Assembly (NCBI RefSeq): GCF_024713975.1
Contig: NC_091113.1
Coordinates: forward strand, 10,676,501-10,740,500
Reading direction: 5' to 3'
DNA length: 64,000 nucleotides
Source of the DNA: Paralichthys olivaceus
Taxonomy: Eukaryota; Chordata; Actinopteri; Pleuronectiformes; Paralichthyidae
The notes beneath the pieces are model-generated. The model ran no database searches. It had not been told where the DNA came from and was given only the letters and a program-made list of their open reading frames with translations. The position numbers and the translations under genes are program-made. This document shows, one piece after another, positions 10,901-16,900 of the stretch; within the stretch, counting starts at the first letter, position 1, and the number at the start of each line of letters is the position of its first letter.

Positions 10901-13900
10901 GCAGCAGGTCCCTGGTTTGATTCCTGGCTCTTGCACCATTTACTGTGTTATTCCCCAGCAACTCCCCCTATTTTCAGTCTACTTAACTAGTAAGATTCAG
11001 AGAAAAGCAAAAAAAGCCAAAGAAACACTTCAAACTAATCCTGAAATTGACTGAATTGTACGTAACAGACCCGATGAGGCTCAACGTCAGTTGTAAGCCA
11101 AGGTGCTTTCTCATGTTCCCCCTCGGTGGAGTCAGCCTACTGTTCCAAATCTTTTTCTGTTCTGCTCTAATTGTTATATCCTCCTGTTTCCCCATGAGAC
11201 GAAGACGGTCTAATCACAGTACTTAAATAAATAGGGGAATACCCAGCGGTTGTGAAAGAATCAAGATCAAACCCAAGGCCTGTGGGAGTAGTGAGGTGAT
11301 CTTCCAGAGCTGTTGTATGTGTGTGACTCAGTGTGCGCATGTCTTCTCAACCTCTGTGGAGATTATCGGCATAGGAGCTGACCTCATAATTCTCATCCCT
11401 TGAGTATTATTCATAGATGCACTGTGTTGGGTTTTTGTCCCCAGATTATGTTTCAGTGAAAGTATACATCTGTTTTAAAGTAATCATCTGAGTTGGTTGA
11501 GAGGAAAGAGGTCACTTTTGCCTCTATCTGTCCATACACAACTAAATCCACAATATCAAATATGATGTAGGAAGTAATTGTTGGGCATGTAATACAGTGA
11601 TGGTTTATTATTTTCATCCTCTTTTTGCTTTTCAGGATGAAACTGGTGCCTATCTCATAGACAGAGACCCTACATACTTTGGGCCAGTGCTTAACTACTT
11701 GAGGCATGGCAAACTGGTGCTCAACAGGGACTTGGCAGAGGAAGGTACACTACCTTAAGAAATTATTCCAATTAATTGCTAACATCTCCATCCATATTTT
11801 AGTTTTAACAGAACATAAGTGCAATATAAATAACATGGATGATAATTAAAATGTTTTTTTTCCAGTAGCATCTCTGTGAAACCCTGAAGTTGATGCCATT
11901 GTTTTTTCATTTAATCTTGACAGGTATTGAAGCAGCAGCAGGATATACCCTCCTAAAAAGTGTAATATGTAATTTATTTTTTCACCATTTCAAGGTGTTT
12001 TGGAAGAAGCCGAATTCTACAACATTACATCATTAATAAAGCTCATCAAGGACAAGATCAGGGAACGCGACTGCAAAACATCACAGGTATACGATGTTGT
12101 GTGAAGGTGACAGAGGAGTTGCATTTCTGTTCCATGAACGGTTTGTCCTCTCTTTCCATCTCATTTCTCTCATGTGTTCACTTTTCCCTGCAGGTTCCGG
12201 TGAAACATGTGTATCGGGTGCTGCAGTGCCAGGAGGAGGAGCTGACACAGATGGTGTCAACCATGTCGGACGGCTGGAAGTTTGAACAGGTAAATCTTCT
12301 TCCTGTGAGCTCACAGCAGCATTCCTCCTTTTCATGTGCTTCACCCACTCCGCTACGCTCACAATGACGCAGGAGGTCCAATCCTCAATGTTGGAAATGG
12401 CTAAAAAAGCCAAAACAGCAAATCACATCTTTCTCAATGTCCGCATACGTGATCCGGGCATCCCTTCTGTGCTCTGATTGGTTGTTACAGCTTGTCAGTA
12501 TAGGTTACGGGCGGGCCCACCAGTCAGAGTTTCTGCTGATTGTGTCAAGGGAGGTGAAGGGAGAGGAGTCTGCTTTGCCAAACAACAGCGGAGAGGTGTG
12601 TCCCACAAATTTCTGTCCACGGGCTGGTCACTGCATGGTCCCCATGTCGTCCATACACACCCCGTTGGCCATTTTTTATCCCAAGTAGACACATAGCTGT
12701 TTCTCCTTTTCTCTTTTATTTGAGTTGATTCTTTTCAGTGCTTATATGTACTGCTTGCTCACCAGTGAGGCTTAAACATGACACCTTTTTCTTGTTTGTG
12801 AATTTATGATTATATTATTTTTATTCATACCGCATTCACAGTTTGTAAGCTTTCTGTGTTCTGCTGTGATGTCGCCACTTGGCTGTGTTGGGGGCTGTGC
12901 TGTAATATTGTGGTGGTTCTTTTTTGAGACAAATATTTTTTGATCTATCGAGCAGGTACATTTTGTAATGAGAACACACTTGTTTGGATGTTGGTAATGT
13001 GTGATTGAATCTTTCTTTCTGAGACGAGGGATCATTGGATCTCCCCACCAGAGCTGAAATCGCACTAATCTCCTTACACAAGTCAGATGGGAAAACTCAG
13101 AGAAACACTCCTGCAAAGCCTACAGCACGGAGAAGATGAGCTTTAATGACCTACTGTCATGACACTGTGTGTGTGTGTGTGCGTGCACGTGCGTGTGTGT
13201 GTGGACTCCACGGTAGCCAGTTGAACTTATTTCTTTTGCTGCTGCGTTGATGCCCCATGTAAGAAATCATTTAACAACAACAAGTCTCCGGCAGCAGTGG
13301 CTAATGAGGCCATGCGTGTCTGAACATGCACACCTGGGTACTGAGGGTATACATGTAGCCTGCAGTATGTACACACACTTAACATTCAGCAGTACAAGCA
13401 GCTATTCAGGAAGAGGAATTACTGTATTCTTGTGAAGGTGTGCATGCAGATTATTTAAATGTAGCTTGTCCCTTTATTTGTCCTGTTGTGTCCTCTGCGT
13501 CTTTTTGATTTGTTAATTTGACCGGCAACAGGAAGAGTAGAAGTTATTATGATTCTTTTTCCAATGACATTTGTAGGCTCTTCTCACACCACTCCTTTTT
13601 TGCATCTGACATTACCTATCTAGCCTTCCATCTGGTTAAATTTGGATTGGCCCTGTATTATGTAAACACTGATATACTGGTAGTTAAATAGTAGGTGCAC
13701 ACAATAAGATCAACTGACAGAAACCACATTAAAGATTGCAGCTCCATCAATACCAAGCCAGTAATATTGATCTCATGATGTGATAATTGAATCATTGGAG
13801 AAAATCCTGCACGTCATGTGTGTCATGGTGACACTGATAGTCAATTGTCAAGTCAAAAATTGGAACTGAAACAATGAATGGGAGTGTGGTACTTTGTGGT

Positions 13901-16900
13901 TTGCTCCTTTATTCACTTTGTAGGCGATACTGTTGTTTTCCCTTTTACTTTTTCATGTTAAACAAGTCAAATCCACCAGTCCCTGTTGATTTTCAACCAG
14001 CATGTTTGCTTCCTGTGGTCCCTGCACTTGTAATCTGTCAGTGACTATCTGCTGATCATGTGTTTTTCTTTCTACAATGTCTTTGTATTCTTTTTTTCAT
14101 TATTTATCTTATTTGCTTCGAGCACAGATTATTTTAATTCTGTGTCTTTACCTAAGTCAACTCTTTATCTCAGTAATTTAAATGAGTGTTTTGACTTTGG
14201 ATTTGCAAGCTGATATATCTGCAGGTCCTGAAAAAACAGCCATTTTGTAGCAAACCTCCACGAAATATTCTGGTTGAAATTGTCAAGGTGTGGCTCCCTT
14301 TGCCCAGTGGCCTTAGTGTACTATGTAAATGCTATTCATTTATTCATGGAAAAAAAATGTGAGGTAACATTCCAAAAGGAAAAAACCTTTCAAGTTAAAT
14401 ATATACAGGCAATAATTAGATTGATCTTTGTAAAATGCCATTTGTAATGTAATAAGAAATATAATTTGCAGGAACCTGTAGACTCTCTGTGCCCCTTGTT
14501 TGGTCAGTAACCTCTTTACTTTAAACATCTCCTTACCTGTTTTCCCACCACAACAAACCCAGTTTTTGCTTCTACTTCGATCAGTCCAAGGCTAAATCTC
14601 CCCATGTACTCTGCTCTCGTGTCTCCATAGCTGGTCAGCATAGGCTCCTCTTACAACTACGGAAACGAAGACCAAGCCGAGTTCCTGTGTGTAGTCTCCA
14701 AGGAGCTGCACAATCAATCATACGGGACAAACAGTGAGCCCAGTGAGAAGGCTAAGGTAAGTGCGTGCATGTGTGTGAGTGAGAGGGTGTGCAGAGGCTA
14801 GCCACAACAAACATGCGTGAATGACGGCCTGTGCCAGAGATTTTAAAGTCTCTGCATTTATGAACATGCCACCAGGGGACTGAGAGCACCTCTAGTTTAT
14901 TGATGAGAAATCTCTATGAAGGAGAACTTTGTAAATATTTAGAGCTTCAGTTAAAAACTAGACTGCTTGTACCACGAGTGATAAAAAAAGAGGGAGGGAA
15001 AGGGGAAACTAAGATTGTGTGTATGAAAAGAACAACTCTCATTTTGATATCAATGATGAGATCACAAAGTGTTTTTGAGTGAATAAACCCTGTGTTTAGA
15101 CTGACTACATTACAAATCAGTTTAAACCAAGCTAGGAGTGTTAGAAAAGCCCAGGTCTGCAGATTAGTGGAGTCTGTCATTTTCTCCAGGGCTTTGGGAG
15201 CGAAGCGGGAGGCACGCCCTGAGGAATTCAAACTCCCATCAGCGTGTCCCCGCGGGGGCCTCACTCCTTGAAGGCAGCTACACATGAAGAAGCACAGCGC
15301 TAAACCTATATTCACTCTGCTGTTTATTTTAAGAGCAAGATGAAACGTTACCAGTGCATCTTTTTAAGTGAAGACTCTGTTTTTGTTTCCAGCGGCACTG
15401 TGCCCAAACACACTAATTTCCAGCTTTACTAAAAAAAATAATTTACATCTAAATGTCGTCAGTCCATCTTATAGAAAGCATGTTATTTATTTGTTATAGA
15501 GGATTGTAGTACATTAGAAAAGTGCCCTTGGATAACATTTGCTTGTTATTTTGTGTTCTGCACTAGATGAAGATGTTAATCCCCTCTGAATATAACCCAT
15601 TAGTTTTATTTTTTCACCCCTTCTGTTCTAATTCTTCTCCTCCATTCATTTCCATCATTTTACAACATGCCTTTCTTGTCTTCTTCTGTGCCGTCTGCAT
15701 GCTGCATGTTGCTCAGAGCGAGGACGAAGAGACGGATTATGAAATGAATGACTCTGATTAGGGTTGAGCACTTATGACTCACTGGTGAGAGCTCAACTGC
15801 TCGTAGTGCCTCTTCCACACCTCCCGAGTTTGTCCTCCTCTTCCTCTCCCGTGCCTCCTTGCTGCATTTTGCCCTACTGAAAAATTTCAGATCCTTATAT
15901 CAGAGTAAAGTGATCATTAAGGTTGGAAATCAGCTTTGGCCTTCAGAATCTACAAGCCAAAGCCAGGTAAAAATCCAGATGGTTCTTGCTGAGATTGGTT
16001 GAATATGTCTTTACAAGTGACGCTTCCTCTTTGAAACTAGATGAGACAAACTCCCTTTGTTTCAGTAGTGTAAAAATGCCCTGTGCAATTATTTTCATGC
16101 TCACAGCCTTAGTTAATGGAGGGCAATGCTGAATCATCAATTGCTGCAGTTTGACCATTGTTCTTCATTCAGTGACATTGTAAAGGAAGGGAGGGGTACA
16201 CAACTCGTCTATTGTTAAAATTAGTTGTAGTTTTGCTTGACAATGGTGATAAAATTGATGCAATATCAACCTTTTAACTAGAATCTAGCTTCTACCAATT
16301 ATAAAACTTGCATAATTTTTTTAGTTTGAGCTCAAATGAATTCCTTTTAGCACCAACAGATTCCCTGTTTCAAATCTAAACTGATTTAAAAAAAAAAAAG
16401 AGGCCAGATACCAAACATTATTTTAAGATTTAACTGATGCTAAAATAGTATTTACTCTTTAGTTATTGTGCGTGTGTGTGTGCATGCGTGCGTGCCAGTG
16501 ACTAATGGATAAAAGCAAAGAGTCGGGAGAGGAGGAGCACATGCAATATAAAATTAACTGTCTTATGAGCGAGTGAGTATTAAACACAGGCAGCTTGTGT
16601 GTACTGTAATTTGCAGTGATACAAGTATTAAAGTAAAACACTTAGACAGATATGGACGAGTGAACAGCTGCACAGATGGATTTTCTTTTCAGATGCACAA
16701 TACAGTTAATGAAGACCAATGTTTAAAAAAAATGTTTTCAGCCCAAACAGGCTTAAACATGGTCACATTCAATACATCCATTCCTTTCCCCTCATTCTTT
16801 TCTTCTCTCCCTCTTTCTTTAACCTTTTCTCTTTCACGGTCCATCTTTCACACTGCTGTGACATGAGCCATGCATGTAGCTCGAAAACACCGTTGCATCA

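Follow-up and report, generated by a model that had tools for sequence, protein, structure and literature searches.

A phase-matched duplicate of exon 5 as a candidate alternative exon in kctd5 of Paralichthys olivaceus

Within intron 4 of kctd5, in the 64-kb stretch of Paralichthys olivaceus DNA analysed here (the window), lies a 35-codon open segment (12491-12595) that resembles the canonical exon 5 and is flanked by splice signals; we refer to it here as exon 5b. On balance, 5b is probably a genuine alternative coding exon that arose by an old tandem duplication, came under purifying selection and is used in place of exon 5. Homology, frame, splice signals and signs of selection are observed, whereas expression, exclusivity, structure and function are inferred.

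Aligned in the same phase and beginning exactly at the acceptor, 5b and exon 5 can be paired over 25 codons with a single gap of four codons, and 14 of these pairs encode the same residue. The Smith-Waterman score of the pair is 59, compared with a maximum of 44 among 1000 dinucleotide shuffles of intron 4 (0/1000 as high), and the homology is beyond chance. In a tblastn search of the window the two exons match each other with E values of 3.8e-4 to 5.5e-4, and any other match in the window is no better than E = 0.4 for exon 5 as the query or E = 1.2 for 5b. Across the genome (588 Mb, 25 contigs) the 5b peptide retrieved 5b itself only; as the same search also missed exon 5, its sensitivity is low and diverged copies of 5b are compatible with this result. 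The DNA from 12400 to 12700 had no second match in the genome in a search that skips very common words, so 5b and its flanks are not part of a detected repeat. A pattern for 5b gave one match among genome contigs, in a Lachnospiraceae metagenome-assembled genome, which was taken as chance; a pattern for exon 5 gave none among viral contigs.

The coordinates, phase, acceptor and donor of 5b in the first-pass annotation were reproduced from the sequence. That annotation had also proposed that the exon was duplicated long ago and that selection on the protein has maintained the copy, on the ground that all differences at identical residues are synonymous. Eight of the 14 identical residues do differ in codon, every time at base 3; being synonymous by definition, such differences carry no weight for selection, and the argument is circular. 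The proposal itself is supported by position tests, neutral simulations, codon score and third-position divergence. At sites invariant in exon 5 of kctd5, kctd2 and kctd17, 5b is changed at 7 of 20 first, 2 of 20 second and 5 of 9 third positions (second versus third, p = 0.016). The simulations, which draw on the same substitutions as this test, gave equal time to a neutral 5b and to an exon 5 open to synonymous change only. Runs with at least the observed third-position differences, at most the observed other differences, at least 14 identical residues and no stop made up at most 0.2% (nine settings of 2000 runs) or at most 0.36% (24 settings of 10,000 runs).

As a background for coding log-odds, the kctd5 introns supplied 239 open frames of 35 codons; 5b reaches 7.9 in frame 0, compared with an intronic maximum of 3.5 (372 training codons). 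Because two relatives of 5b, the exon 5 copies of kctd2 and kctd17, were in the training set, the score was repeated with no exon 5 in training (288 codons), giving 4.4 for 5b against an intronic maximum of 3.1, and -34.4 and -4.6 for its other two frames. The GC content of 5b is 0.543, compared with 0.39 in the remainder of intron 4. Its donor ranks first among the 172 GT dinucleotides of the intron by matrix score. The acceptor has a tract of moderate quality and a single branch-point-like motif, which begins 17 bases upstream. Nonsynonymous and synonymous divergence from exon 5 (dN 0.40, dS 1.23 by LWL85; dS undefined by NG86) make pairwise dN/dS of little use. That 5b is a real, old and selected alternative exon, in whatever use, exclusive or cassette, appears likely.

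Third codon positions differ between 5b and exon 5 at 16 of 25 sites, between exon 5 and its kctd2 and kctd17 counterparts at 14 and 9 of 25, and between kctd2 and kctd17 at 15 of 25. Divergence like that of kctd5 from kctd2 makes 5b look old: its age may be of the same order as that of these paralogues, or it may evolve faster. In forward frames, intron 4 of kctd2 (359 nucleotides) and that of kctd17 (1218 nucleotides) hold no 5b-like stretch that outscores shuffles. Nor was a 5b-like exon found in kctd2 intron 5 or parts of the other introns of that gene, in some 5 kb past exon 5 of kctd17 or, beyond 5b itself, in kctd5 introns 2 and 3, the rest of 4, and 5; each region was matched by at least 19 of 200 shuffles, which keep single-base composition only. 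For kctd5 intron 1, the tblastn search of the window applies. Exon 5b would either have arisen in the kctd5 line or have been lost from both kctd2 and kctd17. Three exon 5 loci were found in the genome, all on the same 19.8-Mb contig (kctd2-like at 1661424, kctd5 at 10691131 and kctd17-like at 12923014). No fourth copy was found, and the second kctd5 of the teleost duplication may thus have been lost.

Exon 5b and exon 5 share several features set out for mutually exclusive exons (MXEs) and for tandem duplicated exon substitution (PMC5740500, PMC9741552): they are neighbouring, homologous internal exons in the same frame and phase, free of in-frame stops, with GT-AG junctions and with similar lengths (35 and 42 codons, within the 20-residue difference of the WebScipio setting in PMC5740500). 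Like the events in those reports, the pair is apparently long-lived and sits C-terminally, a position described as enriched in PMC9741552; unlike them, it is known here from genomic sequence alone. Neither main text contains the string 'kctd' (count 0). Exon 5, with its strong donor, would most likely be the default in mature mRNA, and a minority of cell types would carry 5b instead.

Such a choice of exon might be under Rbfox control. The TGCATG after 5b falls within the zone 10-80 nucleotides downstream that is reported for muscle-included exons in PMC5840707, according to which UGCAUG favours inclusion from a downstream position and skipping from an upstream one. The acceptor tract of exon 6a holds two further copies, at -21 and -14, and none is present within 300 nucleotides after exon 5 of kctd2 or kctd17. 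The arrangement recalls the alpha1/alpha2 exon swap of MEF2C and MEF2D, of which MEF2D has a downstream UGCAUG and responds to Rbfox; the Rbfox effect there is experimental, whereas kctd5 has the motif only (PMC5840707).

Several observations weigh against a selected 5b that takes the place of exon 5. The codon score is blunt: the repeat gives even the canonical exon 5 only 0.1, below both 5b and the intronic maximum, and the 239 sampled frames overlap. Pooling of first and second positions against third removes significance (p = 0.096), and 5b has lost 6 of the 17 residues that all three paralogues share. Neutral runs as extreme as the observation reach 1.4% when the identity and no-stop conditions are dropped, and the simulation figures are somewhat optimistic, the alignment having been chosen to maximise similarity. 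The polypyrimidine tract of 5b is poorer than that of exon 5 (0.65 versus 0.80). The introns on either side of 5b (201 and 2035 nucleotides) pose no steric block, by eye none of the three donors resembles a U12 donor, a search for enforcing inverted repeats found a single 17-nucleotide pair away from the exon borders, and joint inclusion stays in frame. In the available text of PMC5469494, KCTD5 cloned from mouse brain gave one transcript only. Canonical exon 5 also has a downstream TGCATG, and 8% of gene positions have one within the next 100 nucleotides; with the motif this common in the gene and mildly enriched across the window (68 copies versus 51.9 expected; 2 of 100 shuffles held as many), Rbfox control of 5b is a lead only.

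Of the first-pass designation as mutually exclusive exons, the phase-matched duplicate stands and exclusivity is not established, since none of the three devices examined enforces it. Few human MXE clusters show a steric or U12 device, with potential steric interference in 57 (9%) and U2/U12 incompatibility in five (PMC5740500), so exclusive use would be compatible with the lack of either. As a base rate, of 1,722 exons newly predicted by similarity in that survey, 654 were validated by one or more junction reads per exon and 358 by three or more (PMC5740500). We judge its predictions to be looser than the evidence for 5b. The junction KFEQ/LVSIG, formed by exon 4 with either exon, presumably lies inside a strand, so that a protein lacking both would have a disrupted domain. 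Folded domains are where human MXEs of known structure lie, and it has been argued that such exons get swapped rather than skipped (PMC5740500).

Three other explanations of 5b were weighed. Similarity to exon 5 by chance within intronic DNA is extremely improbable: although only about 25 codons align, no shuffle scores as high, and the alignment starts at the acceptor itself and in phase. Retention of 5b as a conserved in-frame cassette, joined with exon 5 and lengthening the C-terminal domain by one hairpin, seems unlikely. Both introns are of normal size and the frame would be kept, and the first-pass statement that the two exons can be included together is confirmed (260 residues; the other in-frame isoforms are 218 residues with 5b alone, 225 with exon 5 alone and 183 with neither). 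The joint product would, however, repeat LVSIG and place a second strand-loop-strand (by our presumed strand assignment) inside a compact domain. Residence within folded domains is, moreover, typical of MXEs and not of cassette exons, according to PMC5740500.

An exon fossil, once used or never fixed, that is skipped today and owes its surviving frame and splice sites to chance would explain the changed invariant residues and the absence of an element standing out in intron 4 of kctd2 and kctd17, and selection on 5b that ended recently may also be compatible with the data. We hold this to be improbable, given that no more than 0.4% of neutral simulation runs (1.4% under the relaxed conditions) stay as conserved as 5b, that codon bias is intact and that the donor is the best in the intron. 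The replacement of exon 5 by a selected 5b is the reading that we carry forward.

Joined in order, the canonical exons of kctd5 (Table 1) encode a protein of 225 residues. The BTB domain (PF02214) is N-terminal in both isoforms, with E = 6.2e-24 in the canonical form and 5.8e-24 in the 5b form. All 42 residues of exon 5 align with solved KCTD5 chains (residues 184-225, E = 5.1e-21), 39 of the 42 being identical in 3drx, which we take to be human KCTD5; the 5b peptide alone matched no solved chain up to E = 10. In exon 6a the ending is acidic, and the stop lies 23 nucleotides 5' of the donor, a spacing at which the transcript should escape nonsense-mediated decay. Upstream of kctd5, window positions 1-2325 presumably hold the last exons (3' part) of pdpk1, on the same strand and 2.6 kb before the kctd5 start codon.

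Table 1 Exons and motifs of kctd5, in window positions
Feature	Positions	Strand	Basis
Exon 1, coding part with start codon	4902-5126	+	spliced translation
Exon 2	11636-11744	+	spliced translation
Exon 3	11995-12086	+	spliced translation
Exon 4, ends ...GWKFEQ, phase 0	12194-12289	+	spliced translation
Exon 5b, candidate alternative exon, 35 codons, phase 0/0	12491-12595	+	acceptor ttacag, donor GAG/gtgtgt
Rbfox-type TGCATG, starting at +37 from the 5b donor	12632-12637	+	motif, weak evidence
Exon 5, canonical, 42 codons	14631-14756	+	strong donor AAG/gtaagt
TGCATG starting at +10 from the exon 5 donor, within a GT-rich tract	14766-14771	+	motif
Exon 6a, probable alternative exon, 14 residues then stop (15759-15761)	15717-15784	+	donor CTG/gtgaga
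Exon 6, ILQERGSRM then stop	18011-18040	+	spliced translation

Both versions of exon 5 would enter the protein at the same point, directly after KFEQ, and the hydrophobic pattern of the second strand is kept (EFLCVVSKE in exon 5, EFLLIVSRE in 5b, a segment that we presume to be a strand). With start point and pattern preserved, the pentamer-forming BTB part and the C-terminal core should survive the exchange. The exposed loop would be four residues shorter in the 5b form, and a 14-residue tail would replace the flexible 17-residue tail, likely altering the recruitment of targets such as G-beta-gamma. KCTD5 is reported to form mixed oligomers with its relatives (PMC10531988), so subunits with exon 5 and with 5b could also mix, and recruitment could possibly be graded by combining the two within one pentamer.

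That exon 5 belongs to the substrate-contacting C-terminal module, as first annotated, agrees with published structure: it supplies the second half of the G-beta-gamma-binding domain (PMC13361646) and most of the tail. The further idea of a substrate switch through loop and tail fares differently for its two parts. Replacement of the NYG of the loop by alanines in the fly protein Insomniac gave the same sleep rescue as wild type, and deletion of the last 25 residues reduced activity (PMC11790235), which makes the tail a likelier cause of changed target choice than the loop. KCTD5 residues matching these 25 are not resolved in crystals of KCTD5 alone (PMC11790235). In complexes with G-beta-gamma the modelled ranges differ, being 152-234 in 8U7Z and 153-211 in 8JKB by the table of a review (PMC13361646), so that the tail may or may not be ordered on the partner.

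Within the KCTD2/5/17 clade, splicing is already reported to vary the protein end: KCTD17 C-termini are alternatively spliced in mouse brain, altering at least one partner, trichoplein (PMC5469494). The available text of that report describes variant C-termini and, unlike the case of kctd5, no homologous copy of exon 5. For Kctd5 itself, a novel mouse exon from ASCOT points to alternative splicing close to the 3' end; for this exon, the main text of PMC6952364 gives only primers for reverse-transcription polymerase chain reaction. Translated, the forward primer reads PYGTTS, a sequence that the exon 5 part of a solved KCTD5 chain also contains, and the novel exon should accordingly lie 3' of exon 5, like 6a and unlike 5b; it may be the mouse counterpart of 6a. 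In the open-access literature, survey supplements apart, no report of a tandem duplicated exon pair in kctd5 was found.

As a tentative and rather doubtful extension, fish may make two KCTD5 receptors by a long-kept exon swap, with the same pentamer and Cul3 platform and different target tails, possibly in neural tissue or muscle under Rbfox, and with mixed pentamers tuning the ubiquitination of G-protein subunits and other clients. If this is true, the client choice of a Cul3 adaptor would be set by splicing, and 5b would be a natural, long-selected second version of exon 5, a ready-made experiment on the residues that choose the target.

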